Source: Adhaeribacter radiodurans (GTDB lineage: Bacteria; Bacteroidota; Bacteroidia; Cytophagales; Hymenobacteraceae). Taken from it: DNA of 64,000 bases. The stretch's first letter is position 1. Each line of letters opens with the position of its first letter. Location: NCBI RefSeq assembly GCF_014075995.1, contig NZ_CP055153.1, forward strand, positions 620,001 through 684,000. Reading direction: 5' to 3'. Shown here piece by piece: positions 11,580 through 31,757 of the stretch. The translations under genes were made by a program, and so were the position numbers. Under the pieces are notes generated by a model. The model was not told the origin of the DNA, searched no databases, and was given only the letters and a program-made list of their open reading frames with translations.

Positions 11580-12115
11580 ATACCTGCCAGTAACGTGCCT
11601 GGCTTCATTTTGCTTTTCTCTTGCAAGCTCCTCTGGAGTGCTATAAATACCAGACACTCTAATTGAGTTATAATTCTTTCGCTTCTTTATACTTTTTTAC
11701 TGCCTTAAATTCTAAACTCGGCAACGTACTTACCAGGTTTAATTTTTAAGAATTTACCAGTCCTTGTTTACTTGCTGTTTTACTATAACCAGTGGGTTCA
11801 CCCGTTCTATTCCCAGCTAACGGGTACTTTCGTTTTCCTTGTAATTATCGCACTTTTTTCTCAATCGTTCCCGGCATCGATTGCATAAATATATCTCTCC
11901 GAATGGTGGTAAACCATTTTTTTAATGGCTAAGATTATTGAATTATTTAAAAACCGAAGGGTAATTAATGGTTGAATTGAGTGCTGAATGAACAAAAAAT
12001 GGATGCTATTTTCTCATTCAAAAAGCTTAGACTTCCCGGTAATTAATAGTAAAGTTTTAGAAAGCTATGGGCATTTGACCCAACTCCAAATTTTAAATAA
12101 ACCAACAATTATACA
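11580..12115. promoter_or_regulatory. Upstream region of susC2, contains a LacI-like operator
   Basis: This 536-base non-coding stretch between the hybrid sensor and susC2 has no supported gene. It holds the operator-like site at 11859-11886 (listed separately), about 230 bases before the susC2 start. The sequence after the site (ATAAATATATCT, then TAAACCA) resembles the sequence after the matching site upstream of kduD, so similarity reaches beyond the palindrome and may include promoter elements. Confidence 0.6.
11859..11886. promoter_or_regulatory. Putative LacI-family operator, site 1 (upstream of susC2)
   Basis: The right half is ATCGATTGCAT (11876-11886), identical to the right half of the sites at 17702 and 30795. 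The left half has CAATCG, complementary to CGATTG in the right half. The centre contains CCGG. Partly palindromic sites with a central CG are typical of LacI-family binding sites. Binding by the regulator at 29639 is inferred. Confidence 0.7.
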
Positions 12116-15100
12116 ATGAAAAGACTATTATCACTGTTTTGCCTCATTTGGGCCTGCACAGTACCAGCTTTGGCTCAAACCACTACAGTAACCGGGCAGG
12201 TTACAGATGGAGACACCAAGGACCCCTTGCCGGGAGTAGTGGTTCTGGTTCAAGGAACCACTAATGGTACCTCTACAGACATGGAGGGTAAGTTTTCTCT
12301 CAATGTCCCTTCTCCGGAAACCGCCAATCTGGTAGTTAGTTACGTGGGTTACCAAACACAAACCATTAAAATTGGCAATCAAACGCAATTGAATATAAGT
12401 CTAAAAGCCGATACCAAGGCGCTGGAGGAGGTAGTGGTTGTGGGTTATGGCACGCAGAAAAAAGGTGATGTTACCGTAGCCGTAGCCAGTGTAGAAGGGA
12501 AATCCATTGCCGAAAGAGGAACGGTAAACCCTTTACAAGCGGTGCAAGGTCAGGTAGCAGGAGTGGATATCTCGGCTGGAACTGGCCGGGCAGGTTCTAG
12601 CTACAATATTCAAATACGAGGTCAAAATTCCCTGGCTGGCGGCTCTCCTTTATACGTAGTAGACGGAGTAATTGTATCGGATATTAACTTTTTAAACCCA
12701 CAGGATATTGCCAAAATGGATATCCTGAAAGATGCTGCTTCTACGGCTATTTACGGCTCGCGGGGCTCTAATGGAGTAGTTATTGTTACTACCAAACAAG
12801 GCAGTACCGTAAAAGGGGAGGCTACTATTTCTTACGATGGGTACACCGGTATTCGGCAAAATGCCCGCATGCCTGACTTTATGAGCGGCGATGAAGTATG
12901 GGAGTATCGCCAAAATTCGTATATCGTTCCGGAATTAATAGCTGGAAATAATCCTACTACTATCGGTAGTGCTGGTGGCGATAATCCTACCATTGCCGAC
13001 CGGGTGGCTAATAAACAATATACTAACTGGCGCGACCTGGTGCTGCGCACCGGAACCCAGAACAATCACTGGCTAACTATTTCGGGTACGAGCAGCAATA
13101 ATATTCAATACATTATCGGCGCCGGTTATCAGAACGAAAAAGGAAATTTAATTAATGAAGAATTCGACCGGTATAACTTTAAAGCTAGTGCCGACCATAA
13201 ACTGAATGACCGGTGGGCCGCCGGAGCAAGTTTTAATTTTTCGCTGGCCGAAATAGAGCGGGGTAGTGATTTGGCCGTTACTAATGCCTTCCGGATGTCG
13301 CCCATTTTTTCACCATACGATGCGGATGGTAACCTGGTCTTCCGGCCTGGTCAGATTGCTATACCCGGAACAACAAATGTGACGAGTATTACCAGTTCCG
13401 TTAATCCATTGTTAGATAACGCCAATTCCGAGAATAATACCCGGCGTTCTTTTGGGGTTGGTAATTTATACCTTCAATATTCCCCGGTTAAATGGATAGA
13501 TATCCGGTCTACTTTTTCTCCCCGGATTACATTTGATAGAACCGGACGTTACTGGGGCTCTCAGACCGAAAACCGTGGTGGTTTGCAACCCGCCGCTGAA
13601 ATGCAGAACCAGGAAGCGTTTTCTTATATTCTGGATAACTTAATTACCGCCCGGAAAACCTATGGCGCGCATAGTATTACCTTTACCGGGCTACATAGTT
13701 TGCAGCAGGATAGATTGGAAAGCAGCTTTATCCGGGCAACTAACCTTCCTTTTAATTCTTCTTTTTACAACCTTGGAACAGCCGCCGTTAGAGAAAGAGT
13801 GGAAAGTGGTTTTAGTAAATCATCCCTTGTTTCGTACATGGCCCGGGTAAATTATTATTTTAGAGATAAATACCTGGTTACGTTGGCAACCCGTTGGGAT
13901 GGCTCTTCTAAATTAGCTCCCGGTCAAAAATGGTCTTCCTTCCCGTCGGCTTCCTTGGCCTGGCGGCTATCCGAAGAAAATTTTATAAAAGACATTCCTT
14001 TAATTTATGATTTAAAAGCTCGATTCAGTGCCGGTATAGCCGGTAATAATAACAACATTAATGCATACGGTACCCAAATGAATTTAAGTAATCCGGTTTT
14101 CTACGATTATGGCGGTACCCTGGGTTTGGGTTATACCTCTAACCGTTTGCCCAATCAGGAATTAACCTGGGAGCGAACACGCGAGTATGATTTAGGTTTA
14201 GACTATGCTTTGTTAGACGGCCGCATATCGGGTTCTATTGACGTTTATGATAAGCTTTCGAAAGGCGTTATTATGGACCGCGACATAGCTATCGAAAATG
14301 GCTGGGTTTCTATTAAAGATAACGTGGGTTCGGTAAGTAATAAGGGTATTGAGTTGTCTTTAAAAACCATTAATGTTTCGGGTGGCGATTTCACTTGGTC
14401 TACTACTTTTAACTTTGCCCGGAATAAAAATGCCATTGTCGAGCTCCTGGATGAAAAAATAGATTTACCGGGTAACGCCTGGTTTATTGGTAAACCGATA
14501 AATGTAAATTATAACTTTGTTTATGATGGAGTTTGGCAGGAAAGTGAACGGGATGAAGCCCTGAAATATAAACAACTTCCCGGTCAGGCTAAAGTTAAAG
14601 ACCTAGACAACAATGGCGTTCTGAATAATGCCGACCGGGCCATCATTGGGCAGCGAGATCCAAAATGGAGCGGCGGTTTCTCTACCCAGTTAAATTACAA
14701 AGCCTTTGATTTATCGGCTTCTTTGTTCGCCCGCCAGGGTCACCAGGTTTATAGCCCATTCCACGCTCAGTTTGTTAATTTCGGCGACCGGGGTGGTACC
14801 AAGTTAGATGTAAATTATTACATGCCGGAAAATAATATTACGCCAACAAGGGTTTCCAATGAATATCCCATGCCCGGACGTCCCGGCGATTACTGGCCTT
14901 TGGTAGGTTATTACAAGGATGTTTCGTTCGTGAAAGTACAAAATATATCCTTGGGTTATAATCTGCCCACCGAATTGTTAAAACGGATTAAATTGAAAAC
15001 GCTGCGGGTGTATGCCAATGTTTTAAATCCATTTGTATTTACCGATTTTGATGGTTTTGACCCCGAAAGTGCCAGTGGTATCGACCCCAGTGCTGGTACG

Positions 15101-15187
15101 CAAATTACCAACAGTACTACCGGTTCCCTGAATAATACAGGAATTAGTACCATTACTTATCAAGTAGGAGTAAATCTTAAATTCTAA
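12116..15187 (+). CDS. SusC/RagA-type TonB-dependent outer membrane transporter (pair 2)
   Basis: This 1023-residue outer membrane importer has a standard layout: signal peptide (about 1-20, cleavage near ALA-Q), carboxypeptidase-regulatory-like domain (about 24-100, VTGQVTDGDTKDPLPGVV), the SusC signature VVVGYGTQKKGDVT near residue 107, the plug with LYVVDGVIV and YGSRGSNGVVIVTTKQG, and a beta barrel to the C-terminus. Unlike susC1 it has no long linker before the carboxypeptidase-like domain. The ATG at 12116 fits the signal peptide. susD2 follows after 11 bases, so the two are cotranscribed. The operator-like site upstream links it to the uronate catabolic genes, suggesting it imports pectic oligosaccharides under the LacI-type regulator. 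Confidence 0.95.
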   Translation: MKRLLSLFCLIWACTVPALAQTTTVTGQVTDGDTKDPLPGVVVLVQGTTNGTSTDMEGKFSLNVPSPETANLVVSYVGYQTQTIKIGNQTQLNISLKADTKALEEVVVVGYGTQKKGDVTVAVASVEGKSIAERGTVNPLQAVQGQVAGVDISAGTGRAGSSYNIQIRGQNSLAGGSPLYVVDGVIVSDINFLNPQDIAKMDILKDAASTAIYGSRGSNGVVIVTTKQGSTVKGEATISYDGYTGIRQNARMPDFMSGDEVWEYRQNSYIVPELIAGNNPTTIGSAGGDNPTIADRVANKQYTNWRDLVLRTGTQNNHWLTISGTSSNNIQYIIGAGYQNEKGNLINEEFDRYNFKASADHKLNDRWAAGASFNFSLAEIERGSDLAVTNAFRMSPIFSPYDADGNLVFRPGQIAIPGTTNVTSITSSVNPLLDNANSENNTRRSFGVGNLYLQYSPVKWIDIRSTFSPRITFDRTGRYWGSQTENRGGLQPAAEMQNQEAFSYILDNLITARKTYGAHSITFTGLHSLQQDRLESSFIRATNLPFNSSFYNLGTAAVRERVESGFSKSSLVSYMARVNYYFRDKYLVTLATRWDGSSKLAPGQKWSSFPSASLAWRLSEENFIKDIPLIYDLKARFSAGIAGNNNNINAYGTQMNLSNPVFYDYGGTLGLGYTSNRLPNQELTWERTREYDLGLDYALLDGRISGSIDVYDKLSKGVIMDRDIAIENGWVSIKDNVGSVSNKGIELSLKTINVSGGDFTWSTTFNFARNKNAIVELLDEKIDLPGNAWFIGKPINVNYNFVYDGVWQESERDEALKYKQLPGQAKVKDLDNNGVLNNADRAIIGQRDPKWSGGFSTQLNYKAFDLSASLFARQGHQVYSPFHAQFVNFGDRGGTKLDVNYYMPENNITPTRVSNEYPMPGRPGDYWPLVGYYKDVSFVKVQNISLGYNLPTELLKRIKLKTLRVYANVLNPFVFTDFDGFDPESASGIDPSAGTQITNSTTGSLNNTGISTITYQVGVNLKF

Positions 15188-15198
15188 GCCGAAACGTC

Positions 15199-16863
15199 AT
15201 GAAGAAAATATATTTTTTAAATTTTTTACTTGTTTGTTTATTCACTACGGGTTGCCAGGATTATCTGGAAGAAGAAAACAGGTCCAATATTGTTTCGGAA
15301 CAATATTATGCCACTGCCGAAGGCTACGAAAAATTAGTTAATGCTTCGTATGCCACCTTACGTACTGCTTACAACGAACCCTGGTTATATATGGCCGGCA
15401 CCGATTTGTTCGTGGAAGGCCGCGATGTTCAGCCGAAAGGCATTAGCGAGTACCGCGATTTAACGCCCGAAGAAGCAGCCGTAGAAGTTTTCTACCGCAA
15501 TACCTATAATGCCATTCAGGTGTGTAATACCGCTTTGTATTTTAACGATAAAACAGCTTCTACTCCCAACGTAGCTTCCCGCAAAGGCGAAGTACAATTT
15601 TTAAGAGCTTATTATTATTTTTTGCTGGTGCAGCATTTCGGGGGAGTAGCGCTGGTAACCGATTATTTTAAGGAGCCCCAAGCGCAGTTTGCGCGCAATT
15701 CGGCGGAAGAAGTTTATACTTTTATTATTAATGAGATGAAAGCGGCGCTGGCCCTGGTGCCAGAAAGCCAATTGGAGTTTGGCCGCATTTCCCAAAGAGC
15801 CATCCGGCACTTTCTGGCCAAGGTTTACCTGACCCGGGGATACGAAACCTTTGGCAGTAGTACCGATTTTACAGAAGCCGCCTCTTTAGCCGATGCCGCC
15901 ATTGCGCAGCAGCCCCTCGCTATACCGTTCGAAGATTTGTTTTATCCCGGCAACGAAAGAAATGCGGAAGTTCTTTTCTCTATTCAATATGACCCAGGTT
16001 CTATTGCTAACCCCCAAACGGGCGGCAATAATCAAAATTATTGGTTTGGGCCTTATATGGGCGGTCAGGGAGCCGTACAGGGATATCCGCAACGGGCCTA
16101 CCGGTTGGTACCTACCATGTATTTGTTCGATGTTTATACCCAAAACGATGCCCGGTTCGATGCTACTTTTATGATTGAATATTACCAGCGGTACTACGAC
16201 TATTATGATAAAAAGACTGAACGAGCCAGCCTGAATGTACGGTATTATTATGCGCCCAAATGGGCCAATAGCCCAGAGGCAATAGAGGCTTGGAAGGCGG
16301 CCGACCCTACTCACCGGAGTGCAGCCCAGGTAATACCGTACTCACCAGCCTGGGAAGCTACTAACAGCACTACTTTTGATAATGCTACTCCTGCCATTAA
16401 AAAGTTTGATGACCCCAAAGCGGCCTTTGGTAGTTCTTCCAGTACCCGCGATATCTACTTAGCTCGTTTAGGAGAAACCTACTTGATTGCCGCCGAAGCT
16501 TATTTAAAATTAGGTGATAATACTACTGCTGCCCAGCGTATTAACGAGGTGAGAAGAAGAGCTGCCAAACCGGGTGCCGAGATGGCCATGTTAATTAATC
16601 CAGGCGATATAACCATTGATTTTATTCTGGATGAGAGAGCCCGGGAACTGGCCGGTGAGTATCTGCGCTGGTTTGATTTAAAACGCACGGGTACCCTTGT
16701 GGATAGAACTAAATTGTATAACCGGGATATCCGTAATTGGTTTAACCAAGGCATTGACCCATTCCAAGGTTCAGATGGTGCTTTTAAAGTACTAAGACCC
16801 ATTCCTTCCCGAGCCCTTATTCTGAACGAAGGAGAATTTGAACAAAATCCAGGTTATAAATAA
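15199..16863 (+). CDS. SusD/RagB-type surface glycan-binding lipoprotein (pair 2)
   Basis: This 554-residue outer membrane lipoprotein is the partner of SusC2. The signal ends in a lipobox, FTTGC, with lipidated Cys at residue 19, followed by QDYLEEENRS. Typical SusD segments are present: FLRAYYYFLLVQHFGG near residue 135 and, close to the C-terminus, DFILDERARELAGE and LRWFDLKRTG, ending in NPGYK. It starts 11 bases after susC2. It differs from SusD1 in its central half, so the two pairs may bind different pectic fragments; this is inference. A hairpin lies about 60 bases after the stop. Confidence 0.95.
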   Translation: MKKIYFLNFLLVCLFTTGCQDYLEEENRSNIVSEQYYATAEGYEKLVNASYATLRTAYNEPWLYMAGTDLFVEGRDVQPKGISEYRDLTPEEAAVEVFYRNTYNAIQVCNTALYFNDKTASTPNVASRKGEVQFLRAYYYFLLVQHFGGVALVTDYFKEPQAQFARNSAEEVYTFIINEMKAALALVPESQLEFGRISQRAIRHFLAKVYLTRGYETFGSSTDFTEAASLADAAIAQQPLAIPFEDLFYPGNERNAEVLFSIQYDPGSIANPQTGGNNQNYWFGPYMGGQGAVQGYPQRAYRLVPTMYLFDVYTQNDARFDATFMIEYYQRYYDYYDKKTERASLNVRYYYAPKWANSPEAIEAWKAADPTHRSAAQVIPYSPAWEATNSTTFDNATPAIKKFDDPKAAFGSSSSTRDIYLARLGETYLIAAEAYLKLGDNTTAAQRINEVRRRAAKPGAEMAMLINPGDITIDFILDERARELAGEYLRWFDLKRTGTLVDRTKLYNRDIRNWFNQGIDPFQGSDGAFKVLRPIPSRALILNEGEFEQNPGYK

Positions 16864-17579: not shown

Positions 17580-17701
17580 CAAAAAGAGATACCTATAATC
17601 TCCTTTAAGGTAAAGTTGAAGATACAAGATTTGTGAATTGTGTTTTGTTAGAATGGTGATACAGTTATGGTAAGGCACAAAAAACTGGTTTCGATTTACT
17701 T

Positions 17702-17729
17702 CCTATAACGTTACCGGTATCGATTGCAT
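17702..17729. promoter_or_regulatory. Putative LacI-family operator, site 2 (upstream of kduD)
   Basis: The right half ATCGATTGCAT (17719-17729) is identical to the right halves of the sites at 11859 and 30795. The centre is ACCGGT and the left half is AACGTT-like rather than AATCGAT, so this copy is less symmetrical. It lies about 140 bases before the kduD start in an otherwise empty gap (17580-17870). Confidence 0.7.
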
Positions 17730-17870
17730 AAAGATATCTTCTTAAAACATTTTAAACCACTTTTATTCTGGTTAGACTTGTTAAACATGGGAGGAGAATC
17801 CTGTTTTTAGGGCAACTATTAAACTTATAAATTTTATAAAAATTACTACTTCTGGATTGATTTAGAAAAT

Positions 17871-18641
17871 ATGAATATACCAGGTTTATTTGATTTGAGT
17901 GGTAAAACAGCCCTCGTTACCGGTTGCAACAAAGGCATTGGCAAAGGGATGGCTTTGGCTTTAGCGAGTGCCGGCTGCGATATTATTGGTGTTTCCGCTT
18001 CCCTGGCTTTAGAAGGGAGTGAAATAGAAAATGAGGTAAAAGCTTTAGGTAAAAATTTTAAAGCCTACCAATGCGATTTAAGTAACCGGGAAGCTCTTTC
18101 TGCTTTTACAAAACAAGTACTGGAAGAAAATGCGAATATAGATATTCTGGTGAATAATGCCGGTATGATTTTACGTCAACCAGCCGCCGAACATTCAGAT
18201 GAATATTGGGATAAAGTACTGTCCGTGAACCTGGATGCGCCCTTTGTCCTGGCTCGGGAAATTGGCCGCCACATGCTGGAAAGGGGCTCCGGTAAAATAA
18301 TTTTTACGGCTTCTTTACTAACCTTTCAGGGCGGTATAAATGTGCCGGGCTACGCCGCCAGCAAAGGTGCCATTGGCAGTTTAGTGAAAGCACTTGCTAA
18401 TGAGTGGGCCGGTAAAGGCGTAAATGTAAATGCTATTGCTCCCGGTTACATTGCTACCGATAATACCGAAGCTTTGCGCAACGACCCAGATAGGAGCCAG
18501 GCTATTTTAAGCCGAATACCGGCAGGCCGATGGGGTACACCCGAAGATTTTGCAGGAGCCACAGTATTTCTAGCCTCCCGCGCTGCCGATTATGTACATG
18601 GTACCATCTTAACTGTAGATGGTGGCTGGATGGGCCGTTAG
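17871..18641 (+). CDS. kduD: 2-dehydro-3-deoxy-D-gluconate 5-dehydrogenase (SDR family)
   Basis: This 256-residue short-chain dehydrogenase reduces 2,5-diketo-3-deoxygluconate to 2-keto-3-deoxygluconate with NAD(P)H in the cytoplasm. It is the step after KduI in breakdown of unsaturated uronates. The N-terminal FDLSGKTALVTGCNKGIGKG contains the TGxxxGxG cofactor loop, and NNAG follows near residue 95. The catalytic triad is S148, Y161 and K165 in GYAASKGA, and the C-terminus has TVDGGW. Length matches the KduD family. kduI begins 26 bases downstream, which supports the specific function over a generic SDR. The upstream operator-like site suggests control by the LacI regulator. Confidence 0.92.
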   Translation: MNIPGLFDLSGKTALVTGCNKGIGKGMALALASAGCDIIGVSASLALEGSEIENEVKALGKNFKAYQCDLSNREALSAFTKQVLEENANIDILVNNAGMILRQPAAEHSDEYWDKVLSVNLDAPFVLAREIGRHMLERGSGKIIFTASLLTFQGGINVPGYAASKGAIGSLVKALANEWAGKGVNVNAIAPGYIATDNTEALRNDPDRSQAILSRIPAGRWGTPEDFAGATVFLASRAADYVHGTILTVDGGWMGR

Positions 18642-18667
18642 TAAAATTTAATTGCCAAAATAAAACA

Positions 18668-19498
18668 ATGAAACAAAGATATCATAATAGTCCGCGGGAA
18701 GTAAAACAAATGACCACGGACCATCTGCGGGAAAACTTTTTAATTCCATCGTTAATGCAGCCCGACGAGATAGTGGTTACCTACAGCCACTACGACCGGG
18801 TAATAATTGGCGGGGTAGTACCGGTAAGTAAAAATATCGAACTGCCCAATTACCCGGAACTACGAGCCAACTTTTTTCTGGAACGCAGGGAATTAGGAAT
18901 TATTAATGTAGGCGGTGCGGGCGAGATAGAGGTTGATGGGAAAACTTTTTCTCTGGAGAAACAGGATTGTTTGTACGTCGGTAAAGGTGCCCATTTCGTC
19001 TCTTTCAGGTCTGTGAATCAGGATAAACCGGCTTTGTTTTACCTGTTGTCCGCACCAGCTCATCATGAATTTCCGGCAGCTTTAATGAAGAAGGAAGAAG
19101 CCATGCCTACGAAAATGGGGGCATTGGAAACTTCCAACGAAAGAACGATTTACAAATACATTCATAAGGATGGATTACAAAGTTGCCAATTGGTAATGGG
19201 CTTAACGGTGCTGGCTACCGGTAGTGTCTGGAATACCATGCCGGCCCACACCCACGACCGCCGAATGGAAGCTTATTTTTATTTTGATGTGCCGGAGAAT
19301 CAGGTGGTGGTGCATCTTATGGGCGAACCGCAGGAAACCCGTCATTTAATGGTGCATAATCACCAGGCCATTCTTTCGCCGCCTTGGTCTATTCATGCGG
19401 GTTGTGGTACCAGTAATTATGCTTTTATATGGGGAATGGCCGGCGAAAACAAAGACTACAGCGACATGGACCCGGTGAAAATAACCGAACTTCGGTAA
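18668..19498 (+). CDS. kduI: 5-dehydro-4-deoxy-D-glucuronate isomerase
   Basis: This 276-residue cupin-type isomerase converts 5-keto-4-deoxyuronate, released by GH105 or lyases, to 2,5-diketo-3-deoxygluconate. The ATG at 18668 gives a normal KduI N-terminus (MKQRYHNSPREVKQM); the frame is open upstream to 18530 but that part overlaps kduD and reads as nonsense. Four metal ligands can be placed: H194 and H196 in the HTHDRR motif, E201, and H243 in SIHAGCGT. Their spacing equals that of the E. coli enzyme (196, 198, 203, 245). It follows kduD by 26 bases and is surely in the same transcript. Assignment is firm. Confidence 0.95.
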   Translation: MKQRYHNSPREVKQMTTDHLRENFLIPSLMQPDEIVVTYSHYDRVIIGGVVPVSKNIELPNYPELRANFFLERRELGIINVGGAGEIEVDGKTFSLEKQDCLYVGKGAHFVSFRSVNQDKPALFYLLSAPAHHEFPAALMKKEEAMPTKMGALETSNERTIYKYIHKDGLQSCQLVMGLTVLATGSVWNTMPAHTHDRRMEAYFYFDVPENQVVVHLMGEPQETRHLMVHNHQAILSPPWSIHAGCGTSNYAFIWGMAGENKDYSDMDPVKITELR

Positions 19499-19607
19499 GC
19501 TATTGGTTCCAAGTTAATTCCACTTTTGGTTTTAATAATATGTTGAACCAGGCTGCTTTTTAAATGGCTTTTGAAATCTTTCTTTTTTCTAATTAATGTA
19601 GTACATC

Positions 19608-21560
19608 GTGAAAAAGTATTTATTCTTCCTGGTAGTAATAGCATGCAGTAGCCTTCCGGTAAAATTTTCTTATGGCCAGACTAAAAGGGGAGCCTGGTCC
19701 GAGAAAATGGCGGCTACTGTTATGCATATCTGGAAAGATTCGCTGGTAATGCAGCCCGGTAAACCCGTTAAGTGGGCCTACGACGAAGGCGTGGTGCTGG
19801 AAGGTTTTACCAATATCTGGCGGCGGACCGCTAAAGGAGAATACTTTAAGTTCATCCAGAAAAGCATGGACCATTTTGTGCAGGAGGATGGCAGCATCCG
19901 GAAGTATAAGTCGGAAGAATATAATATTGACCACATTAAAAACGGCCGCATTCTGCTAATGCTTTATAAAGTTACTGGCCAGGAAAAATATTACAAAGCA
20001 GCTACTTTGCTACGCAGCCAATTGAACACGCATCCGCGCACCAAAGAAGGAGGCTTTTGGCACAAGAAAATTTACCCCCACCAAATGTGGCTCGATGGCT
20101 TGTACATGGGGCAGCCCTTTTATGCCGAATACGCTGCAACATTTAACCAGCCTGAAGCATTTGATGATATTGCTAAACAGTTTGTATATATGGAGAACCA
20201 TGCCCGGGACAAAAATACCGGTTTGTTATATCACGGCTGGGACGAATCGAAAGAGCAAAAATGGGCAAATAAAAACACCGGTTTATCGCCGCATTTCTGG
20301 GGCCGGGCCATGGGCTGGTACGGCATGGGTTTGGTAGATGTGCTGGAGTATTTCCCGGGAAAACACCCCCGGCGGAAAGAATTGCTACAAATTTTGGAAC
20401 GCTTTGCCACCGCCGTAGAAAAAGTACAAGACTCAAAATCCGGCGTTTGGTACCAAATCCTAGATAAACCAACGGGCAAAGGCAATTACCTGGAAGCATC
20501 GGCCTCTAACATGTTTGTTTATGCCCTAGCCAAAGGAGTGCGTTTAGGTTATTTGCCTCAAAAATTCGAAGCCGTGGCGCAAAAAGGCTATCAAGGAATA
20601 TTAAAAGAATTTATTAAAACCGATGAAAGTGGGCAAGTAAATCTGCATGGTACGGTAAGCGTGGCTGGTTTAGGCGGTAATCCGTACCGCGATGGTAGTT
20701 ATGAGTACTACCTAAGTGAAAAAGTAGTTGTAAATGACCCGAAAGGAGTAGGCGCTTATTTGCAGGCGGCAAATGAAATGGAGCTACGTGCTATCCCCGC
20801 CGTAGGAAAAGGAAAAACCATTTTGCTCGATGGATACTTTAATAACGAGTTTATGAAAGATGCCAGCGGCCAAACCATTCCGTTTCATTACAAATGGCAG
20901 GAACAAGATAATAACGGTTTTTATTTATTGGGCGAACACGCCCGCTACCGGGGAGCTAAAACAGAAGAACTGAAACAAGCTCCCACCACCGATAATTTAA
21001 AAAATGCCAGTGTTTACATTATAGTGGACCCGGACACCGAAAAGGAAACGGACAAACCTAATTACGTGGAACCGGCACATGTAAGCGCTGTTTCAGAATG
21101 GGTAAAAAACGGGGGCGTTCTGGTATTAATGGCCAATGATTTACCAAATGCCGAACTGGACCATTTCAATACTTTAGCTACAGCATTTGGCATTGAGTTT
21201 AAAAAAGAGACCATAAACCCGGTAACCGGTCGACAGTTTGACATGGGAAAAATTATGGTACCCACCAACCATCCCATTTTTAAAACCAGCGGCCAGCTTT
21301 ACCTGAAAGAAATAAGCACCTTAAACCTGAAAGCTCCTGCTAAATCGGTTTTAGTCCATAAAGGCGACGTGGTAATGGCCGTAGCCAAAGTAGGCAAAGG
21401 AACCGTGTTTGCCGTCGGTGACCCTTGGTTGTACAACGAATACACCGATGGTCGTAAATTACCCGCCGAGTTCCAGAATTTTGCAACCGGTAATGATTTA
21501 CTAAACTGGTTGCTCACGCAAGGGCCCGTTACCGGTAAGCAGGGTGCATTAAAGTTATAA
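19608..21560 (+). CDS. GH105 unsaturated rhamnogalacturonyl/galacturonyl hydrolase with C-terminal DUF4350-like domain
   Basis: This 650-residue secreted enzyme removes the unsaturated uronic acid left at the non-reducing end by lyases, feeding KduI. A GTG start at 19608 gives a good signal peptide (cleavage near residue 24, YGQ); no ATG fits. The GH105/GH88 six-hairpin domain covers about 30-385, with D163 in MWLDGLYMGQPFYAEY as the likely catalytic acid and HFWGRAMGWYGMGL downstream. Residues about 400-650 form a second domain (GKTILLDGYFNNE, WVKNGGVLVLMAND, GTVFAVGDPWLYNEY) resembling DUF4350/glutamine amidotransferase-like folds. Single-domain GH105 proteins are about 370-400 residues, so this is a fusion. 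It lies between kduI and uxaB on the same strand. Confidence 0.92.
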   Translation: MKKYLFFLVVIACSSLPVKFSYGQTKRGAWSEKMAATVMHIWKDSLVMQPGKPVKWAYDEGVVLEGFTNIWRRTAKGEYFKFIQKSMDHFVQEDGSIRKYKSEEYNIDHIKNGRILLMLYKVTGQEKYYKAATLLRSQLNTHPRTKEGGFWHKKIYPHQMWLDGLYMGQPFYAEYAATFNQPEAFDDIAKQFVYMENHARDKNTGLLYHGWDESKEQKWANKNTGLSPHFWGRAMGWYGMGLVDVLEYFPGKHPRRKELLQILERFATAVEKVQDSKSGVWYQILDKPTGKGNYLEASASNMFVYALAKGVRLGYLPQKFEAVAQKGYQGILKEFIKTDESGQVNLHGTVSVAGLGGNPYRDGSYEYYLSEKVVVNDPKGVGAYLQAANEMELRAIPAVGKGKTILLDGYFNNEFMKDASGQTIPFHYKWQEQDNNGFYLLGEHARYRGAKTEELKQAPTTDNLKNASVYIIVDPDTEKETDKPNYVEPAHVSAVSEWVKNGGVLVLMANDLPNAELDHFNTLATAFGIEFKKETINPVTGRQFDMGKIMVPTNHPIFKTSGQLYLKEISTLNLKAPAKSVLVHKGDVVMAVAKVGKGTVFAVGDPWLYNEYTDGRKLPAEFQNFATGNDLLNWLLTQGPVTGKQGALKL

Positions 21561-21696
21561 TATGGTGTAAAAGGTAAATCTTCATCTTATTTATAAGGCT
21601 TATAAGATTACTTGATTTATTTGGCTTCTTTCTTTGGAAAAAGTAGAAGATGTAGAAGTACTCCGTTGTTTTTAAAATTTAAGAATATATATAAAC

Positions 21697-23217
21697 ATGA
21701 TTCTGAATCGGGAAAATTTGAAAAAAATATCCGCATCGGGGAACGTTGTTTTGCCAGCATCCGAAGTATGGACTTTACCCGAAAAAGTATTACAATTCGG
21801 AACCGGCGTATTGTTACGGGGTTTGCCCGATTACTTTATAGATAAAGCCAACCAGCAAGGCGTGTTTAACGGCCGGATAGTGGTAGTTAAATCCACAGAT
21901 AAAGGCAGCACTTCCGAATTTGACGACCAAGATGGCTTATATACTCTTTGTGTGCGGGGCATTGCAGATGGGCAAAAAATAGAAGAAAATATAATTTGTT
22001 CAGCTATCAGCCGGGTGCTTTCCGCTAACTCTGATTGGTCGGCTATTCTTCACGTAGCTATTAGCCCGGATTTACAAATTATCATTTCCAATACCACCGA
22101 AGTAGGCATTCTATTAGTAGATGATTCAGTTCAGGCGCAGCCACCGGTTTCTTTTCCAGGTAAATTATTGGCGGTTTTAAAGGCGCGCTATGAGGCTTTT
22201 GCCGGGGACCCAGGTAAAGGGCTGGTAATTGTACCCACTGAATTAATAACCGATAATGGCACCAAGTTAAAAAATATTGTTACAGAACTGGCCCGACAAA
22301 GTAATCTGGATACCGGATTTCTGCAATGGTTAGCTCAAAGTAATACCTTCTGCAATACCCTCGTCGACCGCATTGTGCCCGGTAAACCGGAGGCAAAGGT
22401 ACTGACGGACTTGGAACAAAAATTAGGGTATCAGGACGATTTGCTAATCTTATCGGAATTGTACCGGTTATGGGCCATAGAGGGAGATGAACACGTAAAA
22501 GAGGTGCTTTCTTTCTCCCAGGTTGATGAGGGAGTTGTGATTGCCCCGGATATTACCAAGTACCGGGAACTAAAATTGAGATTGCTGAATGGAACCCATA
22601 CCTTAAGTTGTGCTTTGGCTTTCCTGGCCGGTCAGATTACGGTAAAAGAGGCCATGGGGCAGAAAGCAGTTTCGGATTTTATTTCCCGGCTCATGAAGGA
22701 AGATATTGCTCCGGCTATTCCTGATGAAGTTTCTTCAACCGAATCGGCCGTTTTCTCCCGCCAGGTTCTGGACCGTTTTCGCAATCCGCACCTCGACCAC
22801 CAGTGGTTAAGCATCTCTTTGAATTATACCGCTAAGTTAAAATTGCGGGTGGTACCGGTAATAGAGAATTATTTTAAAATATTTAACCAGGTGCCTCAAA
22901 ATATTGCCTTGGGTTTTGCCGCCTATTTGGTTTTTATGATTGCAACTGAGACCGAAGCGGGTAAATATTATGGTTCTTATAACGGAGAAAGATATTTAAT
23001 TAACGATGACGCGGCTGGGTATTTTTATGATTTGTGGCAGCAAGATACTCCTGAACAAGTAGTAGAAAAAGCCCTGGAAAATTCAGATTTATGGGGCACT
23101 AACCTTGCCGCTTTACCAAGTTTTACCGCTGCCATTCAAAGTTACCTGCGTTTAATTATGACGGATGGAATATTGCCCCTGATTAAATCCTTAGAATCCG
23201 AAAAAGTATCGGTTTAA
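21697..23217 (+). CDS. uxaB: Tagaturonate reductase (altronate oxidoreductase)
   Basis: This 506-residue cytoplasmic enzyme of the mannitol dehydrogenase family reduces D-tagaturonate to D-altronate with NADH. The N-terminal Rossmann part includes VLQFGTGVLLRGLPDYFIDKA, with the family GxGxFLR-like loop, and the second domain has LRLLNGTHTLSCALAFLAG, with the Asn-x-x-His catalytic-type motif of this family. Length agrees with UxaB. The start at 21697 is the first ATG before the conserved N-terminus. uxaA begins 6 bases after the stop, so the two are cotranscribed. The choice of tagaturonate over fructuronate (UxuB) is supported by the UxaA and UxaC neighbours. Confidence 0.92.
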   Translation: MILNRENLKKISASGNVVLPASEVWTLPEKVLQFGTGVLLRGLPDYFIDKANQQGVFNGRIVVVKSTDKGSTSEFDDQDGLYTLCVRGIADGQKIEENIICSAISRVLSANSDWSAILHVAISPDLQIIISNTTEVGILLVDDSVQAQPPVSFPGKLLAVLKARYEAFAGDPGKGLVIVPTELITDNGTKLKNIVTELARQSNLDTGFLQWLAQSNTFCNTLVDRIVPGKPEAKVLTDLEQKLGYQDDLLILSELYRLWAIEGDEHVKEVLSFSQVDEGVVIAPDITKYRELKLRLLNGTHTLSCALAFLAGQITVKEAMGQKAVSDFISRLMKEDIAPAIPDEVSSTESAVFSRQVLDRFRNPHLDHQWLSISLNYTAKLKLRVVPVIENYFKIFNQVPQNIALGFAAYLVFMIATETEAGKYYGSYNGERYLINDDAAGYFYDLWQQDTPEQVVEKALENSDLWGTNLAALPSFTAAIQSYLRLIMTDGILPLIKSLESEKVSV

Positions 23218-23223
23218 AATAAT

Positions 23224-24876
23224 ATGAAGCAAAGTGTATTAAAAGTTCATCCTCAGGATAATGTGCTGGTAGCCCTACGAAATTTACAGAAAGGCGAAGC
23301 AGTATATTATAACAATGAAGAGTTTTTCATACTGGATAATGTAAAGGCGAAACATAAATTCGCTGCGACCTTTATCCCGAAAAACGGCGACGTAATTATG
23401 TATGGGGTGTTAGTTGGAAAAGCGGAAATGGATTTGCCCAAAGGGGCAGTACTTACCACTGGCAATATAAAACATGCTACCAACGACTTTTCTATTGGGG
23501 AGCGAAAAACAGCTTGGCATAAACCTGATGTTTCAAAATGGCAGGATAAAACCTTTAATGGTTTCCACCGGGCCGACGGCAGCGTAGGCACCGCGAATTA
23601 CTGGCTGGTAGTACCCATGGTTTTCTGCGAAAACCGCAACCTGGAAGTACTACAGGAGGCTTTAGTAGCTCCCTTAGGCTACGGCCGCCGAAAAGTATAC
23701 CAAAACCAAGCGCTAAAACTTATTAATTTATATAAGGCCGGAATAAGTGTAGATGCCCTGCTACAGGCGGATATTTACGTAGAAGATATAGAAGAGAAGA
23801 ACAAACCCCTGTTCCCGAATGTGGATGGTATTAAATTTATTACCCACGAAGGCGGTTGCGGCGGTACGCGGCAAGATGCTCAGGCTTTGTGCAGTTTGCT
23901 GGCGGGGTACATTACGCATCCCAATGTGGCGGGCGCTACCGTGTTAAGTTTAGGTTGTCAGAATGCCCAGGTATCGATGCTGCAAGCCGAAATCCAAAAA
24001 CGAAGTCCGCTGTTTAGTAAGCCGCTTTATATTCTGGACCAACAACAAACCGGAACGGAAGCTAACCTCTTATCCTTGGCGATTAAACAAACTTTTGCCG
24101 GATTGGTGGAAGCCAACCAAAACGAACGGCAACCGGCTCCTTTAAGTAAATTATGCATTGGTTTGGAGTGCGGCGGCTCCGATGGTTTTTCCGGTATTTC
24201 GGCCAACCCAGCTATTGGTTATACTTCCGATTTATTAGTGGCTTTGGGCGGTTCGGTTATTCTGGCGGAGTTTCCAGAGCTGTGCGGCGTCGAACAAAAT
24301 CTAAGTGACCGGTGTGTCAGCACCGACCAGGCCGAACGCTTTTCTTCTTTGATGCGCACTTATAACGACCGGGCTCAAGCAGTAGGTTCGGGGTTTGATA
24401 TGAATCCGTCGCCGGGCAATATCAAAGATGGTTTAATTACCGATGCCATAAAAAGTGCCGGAGCGGCCAAAAAAGGCGGTACTTCGCCGGTAGTAGCCGT
24501 GCTGGATTACCCCGAAAAAGTAACCCAACCGGGCCTTAATTTACTCTGTACTCCTGGCAACGATGTGGAATCTACCACGGCTGAAGTAGCTTCCGGTGCT
24601 AACCTAGTTTTATTTACGACGGGTTTAGGTACCCCAACCGGTAATCCTATAGCGCCCGTAGTAAAAATTGCCTCTAATACCACATTGTTCCAGCGTATGA
24701 GCGATATTATGGATATAAATACCGGTACCATCATTGAAGGTGAAGAAACCATTGAACAAGCCGGTGCCCGTATTCTGGATTATGTAATTCAGGTAGCCAG
24801 CGGCGATGTAGAAGTGAGTGCCGTCCGTCATGGTCAGGATGATTTTATCCCCTGGAAAAGAGGTGTCTCGCTTTAA
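23224..24876 (+). CDS. uxaA: Altronate dehydratase
   Basis: This 550-residue cytoplasmic enzyme dehydrates D-altronate to 2-keto-3-deoxygluconate. The N-terminal SAF domain (about 1-95) begins VLKVHPQDNVLVALRNL, followed by a linker and the large catalytic domain with FHRADGSVGTANYW, THEGGCGGTRQDAQ and GLECGGSDGFSGISANPAIG. The Cys-Gly-rich loops are typical of the iron-dependent UxaA/GarD family. Length is slightly above that of the E. coli enzyme. It lies 6 bases after uxaB and 29 bases before uxaC, giving the complete three-step galacturonate branch in one run. Confidence is high. Confidence 0.95.
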   Translation: MKQSVLKVHPQDNVLVALRNLQKGEAVYYNNEEFFILDNVKAKHKFAATFIPKNGDVIMYGVLVGKAEMDLPKGAVLTTGNIKHATNDFSIGERKTAWHKPDVSKWQDKTFNGFHRADGSVGTANYWLVVPMVFCENRNLEVLQEALVAPLGYGRRKVYQNQALKLINLYKAGISVDALLQADIYVEDIEEKNKPLFPNVDGIKFITHEGGCGGTRQDAQALCSLLAGYITHPNVAGATVLSLGCQNAQVSMLQAEIQKRSPLFSKPLYILDQQQTGTEANLLSLAIKQTFAGLVEANQNERQPAPLSKLCIGLECGGSDGFSGISANPAIGYTSDLLVALGGSVILAEFPELCGVEQNLSDRCVSTDQAERFSSLMRTYNDRAQAVGSGFDMNPSPGNIKDGLITDAIKSAGAAKKGGTSPVVAVLDYPEKVTQPGLNLLCTPGNDVESTTAEVASGANLVLFTTGLGTPTGNPIAPVVKIASNTTLFQRMSDIMDINTGTIIEGEETIEQAGARILDYVIQVASGDVEVSAVRHGQDDFIPWKRGVSL

Positions 24877-24905
24877 GTGCTATTAAAAACTAAATAAAAA
24901 AGAAG

Positions 24906-26351
24906 ATGAGTGATGTATTAAGTCCTTCGCTACAGAAGAAGACCAGTAGCCACAAAGCTTTTCTGGACGATAATTTTTTGTTGCAATCTAAAACAGCGCA
25001 GCAATTATATCATGAGTTTGCCAAAAGCATGCCCATCATTGATTATCACAACCACCTACCGCCCGTGGAAATTGCGCAGGATAAGCAATTCGAAAACATC
25101 ACACAAGTATGGCTTTACGGCGACCATTACAAGTGGCGGGCCATGCGCACCAACGGGGTGAACGAAGCATACTGCACCGGAGATAAAAGCGATTACGAAA
25201 AATTTGAAAAATGGGCGGCTACCGTACCTTATACGCTGCGTAACCCGCTTTACCATTGGTCTCACCTGGAACTACAGCGGTATTTCGATATCCACGAAAT
25301 TTTATCCGGGGCTAATGCCCGCGAGGTGTTTGAGGCCTGTAACGCCAAACTGCAAACTCCGGAATATTCCGTGCGCAACCTGCTGCGCCGCATGAACGTG
25401 GAAACGGTTTGCACCACCGACGATCCGCTCGATTCGTTAGAACATCATCAGAAAATAAAACAGGATGGTTTCGAAATAAAAGTATTACCGGCTTTTCGTC
25501 CTGATAAAGCCATGAACGCCGACGAACCGGCCGCCGTGAATGCCTTTATCCAGAAATTGGAAGCCGTAACTAATACCACTATTACGAGCTACAACGATTA
25601 CTTAACGGCTTTAAAGCAACGCCACGATTATTTTGCGGCTAACGGCTGCTCGGTTTCGGACCATGGACTGGAAGAAATGTACGCCGACGATTATACCGAA
25701 GCAGAAATTAAAGAAATCTTCTCTAAAATCCGTATTCAAAAGCCACTTGCGCTAGCAGAAGTAAGGCAGTTTAAGTCGGCGATGCTGTTCGAGTTTGCGC
25801 TCTGGGACCACGAAAAAGGCTGGGTACAGCAATACCATTTGGGCGCTTTGCGCAATAATAATCCCCGGATGTTGCGCCAGCTCGGCCCCGATACTGGTTG
25901 GGATTCTATAGGTGATTTCCGGCAGGCTCGGGCCTTATCTAAGTTCCTGGCCCGGTTAGATAGCGAAGATCGCTTAGCTAAAACTATTTTGTACAACTTA
26001 AACCCCGCCGACAATGAATTAATGGCTACGATGGTCGGAAACTATAACGATGGTTCTGTGCCGGGTAAAATTCAGTTTGGCTCGGGTTGGTGGTTTTTAG
26101 ACCAGAAAGACGGCATGGTAAAACAAATGAATGCTCTTTCGAATATGGGATTACTCAGCCGTTTTGTAGGCATGCTCACCGACTCCCGCAGCTTTTTATC
26201 ATTTCCGCGCCACGAGTATTTCCGCCGGATTTTATGTAACCTGTTTGGCGAAGACATTGAAAATGGAGAACTGCCCAACGACCTGGACTGGACAGGTAAG
26301 GTTATTCAGGACATTTGCTACCACAATGCTAAAAGTTATTTCAACTTTTAA
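24906..26351 (+). CDS. uxaC: Uronate isomerase (glucuronate/galacturonate isomerase)
   Basis: This 481-residue enzyme of the amidohydrolase superfamily interconverts D-galacturonate and D-tagaturonate (and D-glucuronate and D-fructuronate). The metal-binding motif DYHNHLPP lies near residue 46, followed by WLYGDHYKWRAMRTNGV and, further on, TTDDPLDSLEHH, LPAFRPDKA and GSGWWFLDQKDGM, all standard for UxaC. Length is a little over the usual 470. It starts 29 bases after uxaA and ends the tight catabolic run; a 305-base gap precedes the transporter gene. In the pathway it is the first cytoplasmic step for saturated galacturonate released by GH28 and exo-acting enzymes. Confidence 0.95.
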   Translation: MSDVLSPSLQKKTSSHKAFLDDNFLLQSKTAQQLYHEFAKSMPIIDYHNHLPPVEIAQDKQFENITQVWLYGDHYKWRAMRTNGVNEAYCTGDKSDYEKFEKWAATVPYTLRNPLYHWSHLELQRYFDIHEILSGANAREVFEACNAKLQTPEYSVRNLLRRMNVETVCTTDDPLDSLEHHQKIKQDGFEIKVLPAFRPDKAMNADEPAAVNAFIQKLEAVTNTTITSYNDYLTALKQRHDYFAANGCSVSDHGLEEMYADDYTEAEIKEIFSKIRIQKPLALAEVRQFKSAMLFEFALWDHEKGWVQQYHLGALRNNNPRMLRQLGPDTGWDSIGDFRQARALSKFLARLDSEDRLAKTILYNLNPADNELMATMVGNYNDGSVPGKIQFGSGWWFLDQKDGMVKQMNALSNMGLLSRFVGMLTDSRSFLSFPRHEYFRRILCNLFGEDIENGELPNDLDWTGKVIQDICYHNAKSYFNF

Positions 26352-26656
26352 CTGGAATGACCAAAGTTTTTTGCTTATGATCTGCTTCTTAAAAATTTCG
26401 GATGGCAAAAGTAGGATGATTAAACAAAGTTATTCCTGCCTAAAATTTCTAGATAAGGTTTTTTTTAGCTAACCAGAAGTTATTATTTATTAAGCTGTTT
26501 ATGGGGCTGGTGGAGGGAAGTTAAATTAGCCATCTGTGTCTAGTGTAATGCCGATGTTTGTGTTGTGAGAATGGGGTGTAATTTCAATTTAGAGTTTGAT
26601 AAAAACTCACTCCCAAGGCTCTTAAATTTTTTATAACTTCTTAGTATGGTAAAATT
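26352..26656. other. Intergenic stretch between uxaC and the transporter
   Basis: These 305 bases are AT-rich. I see no gene, no clear terminator and no copy of the operator-like site. It may hold a promoter for the transporter gene, since the spacing breaks the tight run of the uxa genes. Confidence 0.4.
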
Positions 26657-28009: not shown

Positions 28010-28511
28010 GGATTTAAATTTAATCATTAAATAACTTCGGTAAGCCTTTTGGGAAAACCAAATACTACAGAGATACTCAGGAAGCACAGAATTAATAAAA
28101 AACATCTGAGTATAAGAGAAAGTAAGTAACAAATTGTAATTGATTTTCCTGTAGATTTAATTTTCGTGCTGTTTCGGAGGAATGTAGAAATGCGTTGCTA
28201 GAGACGTATTGGGTAAAATACTATTAGATTAGGCTGATAGGCAGCAATTAAGAGAAGCATACACCAGTTTGGCTGTGGAGAGCCTTCTAAGGTTCCGGTG
28301 CCGAGTAACGAGGCATTCCGACGAAGGTGGAAAAGAAGCTTAGACCAGCCCGAAAGAGCCAACCGAGGACCGCCGGCCACAAGGCAAACTGGTTACGGTA
28401 CAAGTAAGATAGCACTGTAGCCTGGAGACTTGAAAAAGCTCAAAAGATAAACAGCCAATAGCACGACTTTAATATTTCATTCTGTTAAAGATCTAAAATA
28501 AATAATATATT
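28010..28511. other. Intergenic stretch with structured repeat, before fbp
   Basis: This 502-base gap between exuT and fbp holds the GC-rich repeat copy B (28264-28392). The flanks are AT-rich with no supported gene. The fbp promoter should lie in the last 100 bases but no strong match was seen. Confidence 0.5.
28264..28392 (-). repeat. GC-rich structured intergenic repeat, copy B (inverted)
   Basis: The element is bounded by CCAGTTTGGCTGTGG (28264-28278) and CCACAAGGCAAACTGG (28377-28392), an imperfect terminal inverted repeat that would close a long stem. Read on the minus strand it carries the same ordered blocks as copy A at 1024-1138, including AGTTTGCCT, GGCCGGCGG, CGGGCTG, CTTTTCC, TCGGAATGC and GCACCGGAA. 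The arms of the two copies differ in sequence but both can pair. No protein is encoded. Confidence 0.75.
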
Positions 28512-29525
28512 ATGGATGCCTTAGCTTTACCCGTGGGTACTACCCTCGACCGATTTATTATGCGCAAACAGGAAGATTTTCCTTTTGCCTCCGGCGAGTT
28601 ATCTCAATTATTACGCGATATCGCCTTAGCGGCTAAAATTGTAAACCGGGAGGTAAACCATGCCGGCTTGATAAACATTGGGGGAGCCTACGGAAGTCAG
28701 AATGTGCAGGGAGAAGAACAACAGAAATTAGACGTAGTGGCGAATGTGCGTTTTATCCGGGCCTTGCGTAACGGCGGCGAAGTTTGCACCATTATTTCGG
28801 AAGAAGAGGACGACATGATTCAAACGGGAAACTGCCATGGCAAATACGTGGTCGCTATGGACCCTCTGGATGGGTCTTCCAATATAGATGTAAACGTTTC
28901 CATTGGCACTATTTTCTCGGTTTACCGGCGCAAATCGGCGTTTGATAAGGATGGTGATTTGCTGGATTGTTTGCAGGCGGGCACCGAACAAGTAGCAGCC
29001 GGATACATAATTTATGGTTCCTCTACTATGCTGGTGTATACCACTGGTAATGGTGTAAATGGTTTTACTTACGAACCATCTTTAGGCGAATTTTTTTTAT
29101 CGCACCAGGAAATTAGGATTCCTGAAGAAGGTACTATTTATTCCTGTAACGATGGGAATTACTGGCAATTTAACGAAGGCGTACGGGCGTATTTAGATTA
29201 TTGCCGCAAAGCAGGTTTTACCGCCCGTTATACTGGTTCCTTGGTGGGCGACTTTCACCGGAACTTATTAAAAGGCGGAATTTATTTATATCCTGCTACC
29301 GATAAGACCCCAAAAGGTAAATTACGTTTACTTTACGAATGCAATGCCTTAGCTTTTGTTGTGGAGCAGGCTGGTGGTTTTGCTTCCGATGGAAAAAACC
29401 GAATAGTAAAAATTAAACCGCAAGAGTTACACGAACGCACTCCTTTCATTATAGGCTCGCGCAAAATGGTAGAAACGGCGCTACATATTATGCAAGAAGA
29501 AAAAGATTGGCCTGTGCCGGCGTAA
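28512..29525 (+). CDS. fbp: Fructose-1,6-bisphosphatase, class I
   Basis: This 337-residue cytoplasmic enzyme hydrolyses fructose-1,6-bisphosphate, the committed step of gluconeogenesis. The metal-binding motifs are visible: SEEEDD near residue 96 and [10 protein letters not shown] near residue 118. [21 protein letters not shown] and the C-terminal [14 protein letters not shown] segment are typical of class I. Length matches the family. Placed between the hexuronate transporter and the LacI regulator, it would let cells growing on uronates (which yield pyruvate and glyceraldehyde-3-phosphate) make hexose phosphates. Whether it is the only fbp in the genome cannot be seen from this window. Confidence 0.95.
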
Positions 29526-29638
29526 TATTATTAGTACTATACTCAGACCAGTTAGTAAGTCAAAGGTCTGTTAAAAGGTTGTTTTTTAAAATTAGAAATT
29601 TATAAAATCGACCATTAGTAAATGGCCAAAAAGGCAAC

Positions 29639-30688
29639 CTAACTTCCTATGGTATCTACCTTTATTTCAGTTAAGTCCTTATTCGGGAAAAACTTAGTAT
29701 CCAATACCCTGGTAATAAATTCTTTTACCGGTTTATTGCTCTCTATTAACTGAATAAGCATTTCAATGGCAATCTGGCCCATTTCAAAAGCCGGCTGATG
29801 CACATAACTGATAGAAGGTTGTAAAAGGTTAATTACCGCCGAATTTGAAAAGCCAGCAATGCTGAGGTTATGGATATTGCCGGGGTTAAACTTTCTGAGA
29901 GCCGTCAGGCAGCCAGTGCTGAGCCGGTCGCTGGCCACAAAAATAGCGTCTGGTTTATCCGGCATCTGCAGAATTTTTTTTACGGCATCTTCTACTTCTT
30001 CGTAAATCAAGCCGCCGTGGTGGCAGTATTGCACATAATCTTCATTAAATGGTAGGCCATAGGCCTGCAGGGCCATTTTATAGCCTTCCAGTCGTTCGGG
30101 AGTAATGGAAAGATGGGGTGCATTGGCCAGGTGAGCAATTTTAGTTTGGCCTTCCTTAATAAGGTATTCAGTAGCTTCAAACGCGCCTTTTTTATTATTA
30201 ACTATTACTTTATGGGTTTGTATTTCTTCCACAATTCGGTCAAAAAATACCATCGGCAGCCCTTGTTCGTGTAGCCGCTGTAGGTGGGATATATCCGTTG
30301 TTTCGGCCGACATGGAAACCAATAAGCCATCTACCGAGCGATTTGCCAGGTGCTGTACATTAATGGCTTCTCTCTCGTAAGAATCATGGCTTTGCGAAAT
30401 AATGACGTGGTATCCTTTTTTATAGGCTATAGACTCAATGCCATTTATGGCCTGCGAGAAGAAACTATTGGCCACTTCGCATACAATTACCCCAATTGAG
30501 TAACTTCTTCTTTCTTTTAAGCTTAGGGCAATCGGGTTGGGTTTGTAATTTATTTTTTCGGCATAATCCATTACCAGGCGCTTGGTGTCTTCGCTAATTT
30601 CGTAGCTGTCGCGGAGGGCTCGCGAAACTGTAGAAGTAGATAATCCTAATGCTTTGGCAATATCTTTAATGGTGGTAGGTTTGTACAT
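29639..30688 (-). CDS. LacI-family transcriptional regulator
   Basis: This 349-residue regulator has an N-terminal helix-turn-helix (TIKDIAKALGLSTSTVSRAL, residues about 5-24, then the hinge KPNPIALSLKERRS) and a periplasmic-binding-protein-like sensor domain (SIGVIVCEVANSFFS through to the C-terminus). The start is the ATG at 30688. It is transcribed away from the acetylesterase-pectinesterase-GH28 run, and the perfect palindrome at 30795-30822 sits in the shared upstream region. Copies of that site occur before kduD and susC2. It therefore probably represses or activates the pectin genes in response to a pathway intermediate such as KDG or a uronate, and also controls itself. The ligand is unknown. 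Confidence 0.93.
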   Translation of the reverse strand: MYKPTTIKDIAKALGLSTSTVSRALRDSYEISEDTKRLVMDYAEKINYKPNPIALSLKERRSYSIGVIVCEVANSFFSQAINGIESIAYKKGYHVIISQSHDSYEREAINVQHLANRSVDGLLVSMSAETTDISHLQRLHEQGLPMVFFDRIVEEIQTHKVIVNNKKGAFEATEYLIKEGQTKIAHLANAPHLSITPERLEGYKMALQAYGLPFNEDYVQYCHHGGLIYEEVEDAVKKILQMPDKPDAIFVASDRLSTGCLTALRKFNPGNIHNLSIAGFSNSAVINLLQPSISYVHQPAFEMGQIAIEMLIQLIESNKPVKEFITRVLDTKFFPNKDLTEIKVDTIGS

Positions 30689-30794
30689 CCAGCCGATTTT
30701 TTAAATTTATTAACTAAATATACTCAATTTTTGCCAATAAGCCTTTAAATCCCTTTCCAGATTATTGGCCAGCCTAAGCTTCGGGTGGTTAAAA

Positions 30795-30822
30795 ATGCAA
30801 TCGATGCCGGTATCGATTGCAT
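30795..30822. promoter_or_regulatory. Putative LacI-family operator, site 3 (divergent lacI / CE12 region)
   Basis: ATGCAATCGAT (30795-30805) and ATCGATTGCAT (30812-30822) are perfect inverted repeats around the spacer GCCGGT. The site is 106 bases before the lacI start and about 150 before the acetylesterase start. It is the most symmetrical of three related copies; the others are at 11859 and 17702. Confidence 0.8.
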
Positions 30823-31733: not shown

Positions 31734-31757
31734 ATAAGATATAATCAGAAAAGAGAC

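Follow-up and report, generated by a model that had tools for sequence, protein, structure and literature searches.

Three LacI-family regulators of Bacteroides thetaiotaomicron, KdgR, UxaR and UxuR, have been predicted to control galacturonate and glucuronate catabolism (PMC3878776, PMC4052901), and the KdgR regulon is described as taking in a few periplasmic or extracellular genes. The depolymerisation of pectin in Bacteroides, together with its SusCD pairs, is predicted to be mainly under hybrid two-component sensors (PMC3878776). We analysed a stretch of 64,000 nucleotides from Adhaeribacter radiodurans (contig NZ_CP055153.1, positions 620,001 to 684,000; hereafter the window), in which three palindromic sites lie upstream of susC2-susD2, upstream of kduD, and between a lacI gene and a CE12-like acetylesterase gene. 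In contrast with the Bacteroides predictions, SusCD2, CE12, CE8 and GH28 share a LacI-type site here with the genes of catabolism. Since ManR and AraR are non-sensor regulators of Bacteroides with SusCD targets (PMC3878776), the control of a SusCD pair by a non-sensor regulator alone is not new. We propose that the three sites are composite elements for the LacI-family regulator of the window and that they most likely serve class-I-like activation, a reading to which we give somewhat better than even chances.

A mechanistic parallel is GalR of Escherichia coli at the gal operator OE, a LacI-family protein in upstream contact with RNA polymerase, a contact modelled through the C-terminal domain of the alpha subunit (alpha-CTD), with the DNA face setting the sign of the effect (PMC4693257). 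GalR is the LacI-family precedent for upstream contact activation as well as contact repression; unlike GalR, the element described here belongs to a different sigma and promoter type and its one geometry is reused at many genes. At class I promoters dependent on CRP, the activator is found at further helical turns also, and the A-rich site of alpha-CTD lies about 19 bases from its centre. The basic class I position is upstream at -61.5 (PMC4693257), and the A-rich tract of our sites is similarly placed, being centred at +18 from the operator centre. The protein family differs from that of CRP, and the positive sign is only proposed here. CcpA is a LacI-family member that activates some genes, and it was the best sequence match of the window regulator among solved structures. 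Cra/FruR is likewise given as a LacI-family repressor/activator that activates some genes (PMC4052901). The window regulator differs from both in its NCBIfam scores, which are far below the cut-offs (160 against 385 for Cra, 163 against 442 for CcpA), and in having a local pectin regulon. Among the literature titles and abstract openings listed, a partial coverage that does not show absence from print, neither this regulon nor a LacI-family activator of Bacteroidota was described.

The 11-base half-site ATCGATTGCAT occurs at 11876 (+), 17719 (+), 30795 (-) and 30812 (+), that is, at the three non-coding places where a sequence-only reading of the window had located it. Operator 1 (CTCAATCGTTCCCGGCATCGATTGCA, 11860 to 11885, plus strand) lies upstream of susC2D2 and operator 2 (CTATAACGTTACCGGTATCGATTGCA, 17703 to 17728, plus strand) upstream of kduD. 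Operator 3 (30795 to 30822), between lacI and CE12, reads ATGCAATCGAT-GCCGGT-ATCGATTGCAT and is indeed the perfect 11-base inverted repeat around GCCGGT that had been described. All three are even, CCGG-centred palindromes with the central CG of the LacI-family form. Allowing one mismatch, the half-site had 5 matches in the window, as against a mean of 0.88 in 100 shuffles, none of which reached 5, and its recurrence is not due to chance. Scores against the symmetric 26-base consensus were 26 for site 3, 24 for site 1 and 21 for site 2, the next place in the window scoring 19.

The search was extended to the whole genome (6,935,613 bases, 2 contigs), where the 11-mer ATCGATTGCAT has 5 copies, 4 of them in the window, and its reversed control 3. 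The fifth copy (L005) was ruled out as an operator, there being no CCGG palindrome at that place. The 20-base pattern CGNTNCCGGNANCGATTGCA gave 68 matches at up to three mismatches, compared with 45 for the reversed control; 4 were exact and correspond to the three places, the palindrome being counted twice, none in the 6.94-Mb genome had one mismatch, 6 had two (including site 1 read backwards) and 58 had three. The exact pattern is thus confined to the places on which the sequence-only reading had built its regulon. When 30 of the 68 matches were examined as loci, 25 lay away from the three sites, and 24 of these 25 were inside open frames of at least 181 codons.

The geometry of the sites is absent from the sequence-only reading and was added by the present analysis. 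When 82 sites were aligned, the element proved one-sided: counted from the operator centre, positions +15 to +21 beside the strict half CGATTGCA form an A-rich tract, and a second block of conservation lies further out, at about +57 to +64. For 46 strict sites the A/T fraction at +15 to +21 was 0.83 to 0.98 on the gene side and 0.35 to 0.67 on the far side. The second block was compared with the Bacteroidota -7 consensus, TAnnTTTG (PMC7366714). In 61 strict sites, matches at 5/6 peaked at +58 (8), +59 (6) and +69 (6); in 50 non-strict sites oriented by their A-tract they peaked at +59 (6) and +69 (6), 18 of 73 non-strict sites being left out of this test for lack of an A-tract orientation or for lying at a sequence end; these peaks were equalled by 0 to 1 of 2000 random shifts. 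The looser form TAnnnTT, which was picked after inspection of the sites (TAnnTTTG, from the literature, had been applied earlier), was found on 108 non-redundant sites at +58 (20), +59 (14) and +69 (13), against a mean of 0.98 per position over +24 to +150 and a largest value of 11 in 5000 random shifts. Positions 60 to 68 together hold 2, and the +58/59 and +69 classes are about one helical turn apart. No TAnnnTT was present at +58, +59 or +69, in the pattern orientation, at the 25 weaker CGNTNCCGGNANCGATTGCA loci of the A. radiodurans genome.

All three window sites have their predicted -7 box at exactly +58. Site 1 has an A-rich tract at 11887 to 11893 (plus strand, 5/7 A) and the predicted box TAAGATTA at 11930 to 11937 (plus strand, 4/6 to TAnnTTTG), which would put the start site of susC2 at about 11941; a short inverted repeat, CCATTTTTTTAATGG (11914 to 11928), is seen just 5' of this box. 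For site 2 the corresponding features are a tract at 17730 to 17736 (plus strand, 5/7 A) and the box TAGACTTG at 17773 to 17780 (plus strand, 5/6), and for site 3 a tract at 30823 to 30829 (plus strand, 6/7 A, with 2/7 on the lacI side) and the box TAAAATTG at 30866 to 30873 (plus strand, 5/6), identical in three genomes. Alignments of the kduD site from five genomes of the genus and of the CE12 site from three contain no gap between operator and box, and the leader beyond the box varies in length. Outside the order, family f24 has TAnnnTT at +58/59 in 5 of its 6 A-tract sites and a lacI of 61 to 65% identity in three of the loci. Among 157 core sites, with gene sides taken from mechanical and therefore noisy open frames, the stronger half was on the gene side in 57, on the opposite side in 13, undetermined in 82 and tied in 5; the gene side was favoured by 40 to 4 in strict sites and by 17 to 9 in non-strict ones. 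Family f11 (L251 to L254, L255 (+) and L256) has the strict operator near susC-like genes and no A-tract; its sites are followed by a shared leader of another kind, in which only a few bases separate GTGTT from GACACAAT and which may reflect a different promoter arrangement.

In the mechanism that we propose, a regulator dimer would bind the CCGG-centred palindrome, on the gene-ward side of which the A-rich tract precedes a Bacteroidota-type -7 box; the helical phase of the box is fixed, at +58/59 or, for some promoters in relatives, at +69. With the box centred at -7, the operator centre falls near -68 or -79, so that the predicted starts of susC2D2, kduD-uxaC and CE12-CE8-GH28 would lie about 68 or 79 bases downstream of the regulator. 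Upon a uronate signal derived from pectin, the regulator may aid the binding of RNA polymerase, whose alpha-CTD would use the A-rich tract. Binding, the start sites, the effector, the alpha-CTD contact and the positive sign are what we infer; the sites themselves, their conservation, their link to lacI orthologs and their fixed spacing within the family are read from the genomes. Most LacI-family motifs span 16 to 22 bases, and the protein contacts the seven base pairs nearest the centre (PMC4052901), so that neither the fixed phase of the -7 box nor the conserved positions +12 to +21 are explained by the regulator alone. This geometry points away from a plain repressor operator, and a fixed phase at such a distance with an A-rich tract in between is the arrangement that class I activators use; activation is the sign that we favour.

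The same geometry would suit a contact repressor that holds RNA polymerase back from the same fixed upstream place and is released by a uronate inducer, in the manner of GalR at OE on galP1. Geometry alone does not separate the two signs, and GalR at OE represses P1, on its own DNA face, through contact, and activates P2, on the opposite face (PMC4693257). However, the gene-side A-rich tract beside strict operators is easier to explain as part of a recruiting element, and we judge contact repression unlikely, though the main competitor, and clearly less probable than activation.

Several observations weigh against class-I-like activation or against the generality of its geometry. Most LacI-family proteins repress. 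An exact TAnnnTT at +57 to +60 or +67 to +71 is lacking in 61 of the 108 sites, a clear -33 box was not found in the 108-site set, and the A/T one-sidedness of 29 non-strict sites is weak (0.55 to 0.83 against 0.52 to 0.69). At window sites 1 and 2 the far side is A-rich too (5/7 each). TAnnnTT also accumulates on the complement strand at +59 (10), probably because boxes such as TAATATTA read on both strands, and a smaller TAnnTTTG peak is seen at +36 (7 of 72 sites). In the other families of the order, the box at +58/59/69 was present in 1 of 17 oriented sites and the A-tract in 10 of 17. Lastly, a perfect TATTTTTG is found at +22 of site 3, where the operator would cover the promoter.

This last box would suit an ordinary repressor operator lying over a nearer promoter. 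Such a promoter could use TATTTTTG at +22, as in site 3, or take the half-site's TTG for its -33 box, the -7 box then being near +30. In agreement with the second arrangement, TAnnTTTG at 4/6 is modestly enriched around +30/31, and the want of a fixed box at most sites in other families of the order would agree with either. The +22 box is nevertheless missing from two relatives that keep the +58 box, and the excess at +30 is weaker than that at +58/59, TAnnnTT numbering only 2 at +30. We consider an ordinary operator improbable, and activation from the upstream site remains the preferred reading.

Comparison of the distribution of the motif with that of the regulator showed that the two go together, in support of the earlier proposal that one LacI regulator serves three promoters of pectin genes. 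The pattern used on relatives imposes CCGG. Among 200 genomes of the family, the exact strict motif was found in 53 (reversed control, 0 of 200) and the LacI ortholog in 91; of the 53 motif genomes 50 had the ortholog, as did 41 of the 147 genomes without the motif (Fisher p 2.7e-18). A symmetric core site was found in 83 of the 91 genomes with the ortholog and in 12 of the 109 without (p 3.9e-33), this looser pattern giving 422 sites in 95 genomes and, for its reversed control, 18 matches in 15 of 200. In the order sample outside the family, 17 of 246 genomes had the motif, and the ortholog was present in 16 of these 17 compared with 25 of 229 others (p 3.0e-13); G306 and a second G255 site, having no locus, were left out. 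The ortholog cut-offs were set by us at 298 bits in the family, after a gap had been seen in the list, and at E <= 1e-85 outside, and at most 10 LacI candidates per genome were scored in the family and 7 outside, so orthologs may be missed. Within the genus, genomes with the ortholog (G019, G024, G029) keep the motif, and the strict site was not found in three without it (G003, G009, G014), G014 having one core match.

Three motif genomes of the family are without a full ortholog: G016, whose likely ortholog is split over frames (L201:15763-16687; pieces of 46 to 65% identity), G191, with a partial ortholog at 54%, and G034, in which the site is present and the ortholog was not found, the genome being 78% complete. 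The pieces in G016 lie near the opposite contig end from the pectin genes at the contig start and would be adjacent to them if the contig is circular. Two strict operators remain in G016; the regulator may have been lost naturally there, or the split may be an error of sequencing. Another genome (G031:C1:2386950-2387828) has a LacI ortholog with two in-frame TGA codons and keeps one core site. The sole motif genome outside the family without the ortholog (G241), which has no A-tract, and single matches in five genomes of other classes (L272 to L276), which lack both the A-tract and a -7 box at +58/59/69, were treated as chance.

These counts are correlations from which the relatedness of the genomes was not removed, and by them the tie of the sites to this LacI protein is well supported. 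Another regulator of the same locus could read the motif, the link with lacI then being one of shared gene neighbourhood; neighbours such as kduD or GH88 would co-occur with the motif as well, and two core sites (L228 and L233) point at LacI paralogs (36 and 42% identity), so several LacI regulators may share the CCGG core. Even palindromes with a central CG are, however, the LacI-family form (PMC4052901), the sites adjoin lacI in some genomes and are far from it in others, and the ortholog is found in nearly all strict-motif genomes, the exceptions being G034 and G241. We regard a different regulator as very unlikely, the least probable of the explanations weighed here, and retain the LacI protein of the window as the candidate.

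The genes beside the sites in relatives are kduD, CE8, CE12, GH28, susC and lacI, with some pectate-lyase genes. The first long downstream frame at 145 oriented sites was most like CE8 in 22, susC in 18, kduD in 18, GH28 in 16, CE12 in 4 and lacI in 4; 53 downstream frames had no window homologue and 10 sites had no frame. Sixteen of the 53 proteins without a homologue were scanned and included a PL1 pectate lyase with CBM77, a Pel9A-like beta-helix protein and Gfo/Idh/MocA dehydrogenases, the others having mainly a type IX secretion tail or no family, and some looking unrelated to pectin (DinB-like, asparaginase, GntR-type). Mechanical open frames of at least 80 amino acids, some of them probably spurious, enclosed 21 of 81 sites.

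The four sites that point at lacI comprise two double-sided palindromes (in the window and in G029) and the two directed at paralogs. The sequence-only reading had included self-control of lacI in the regulon; the perfect palindrome between lacI and CE12 and another adjoining lacI in G029 are in its favour; against it, site 3 lacks both an A-tract and a -7 box at +58 on its lacI side, where the closest TAnnnTT copies are at +87 and +100. The support for self-control is weak, and the interpretation offered by the sequence-only reading is, as a whole, partly supported.

The regulator (29639 to 30688, minus strand, 349 amino acids; PF00356, PF00532, PF13377) is a LacI/GalR family member by its N-terminal helix-turn-helix (PF00356, E 3.5e-14, residues 6 to 51) and its periplasmic-binding-like sensor domain, PF00532 and PF13377 covering the remainder. 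It fell under the curated cut-offs of the CytR, RbsR, PurR, CcpA, Cra, GalR, GntR and IdnR equivalogs of NCBIfam (best, 185 against 436), and its closest named relatives, the LacI proteins of A. aerolatus and A. rhizoryzae, are 86% identical to it. The gene names given by the sequence-only reading (SusC/D, KduD and its neighbours, LacI, the esterases, GH28) agree with Pfam and NCBIfam. The plus strand carries the outer-membrane glycan import genes susC2-susD2 (12116 to 16863; Pfam), then kduD, a KduI-like gene, GH88, tagaturonate reductase, altronate dehydratase and uxaC (17871 to 26351; Pfam/NCBIfam), which from their spacing are likely one operon for uronate catabolism, and then the GDSL/CE12-like acetylesterase, the CE8 pectinesterase and GH28 (30972 to 34608; Pfam). 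The presumed CE numbers of the esterases are those of the sequence-only reading; the acetylesterase has a partial PaeY match under the NCBIfam cut-off. A hybrid sensor with an AraC-type output, which in the sequence-only reading may control susCD1, lies at 7179-11579 by its domain families. Elsewhere in the window, a frame of 263 amino acids (36032-36823) that separates the pectin locus from a HAD-like hydrolase has no Pfam match at E 0.001, and in a second carbohydrate cluster (54579-61936; GH43, GH97, GH95) the half-site is absent even with one mismatch allowed.

More broadly, it is close to an even matter, and slightly short of it, that some Bacteroidota run their pectin loci with a dedicated LacI-family class I activator, the composite element being reused at one of two helical turns before genes for import, depolymerisation and catabolism, such that a cytoplasmic sugar sensor, replacing the membrane hybrid sensor or acting beside it, would switch on SusCD and the secreted enzymes. 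If this is true, a cytoplasmic activator of LacI type would switch pectin use, acting a fixed distance away from the unusual promoters of the phylum, about a hundred candidate natural promoters would be at hand for the contact between activator and RNA polymerase in Bacteroidota, and regulons and start sites would be predictable from sequence.

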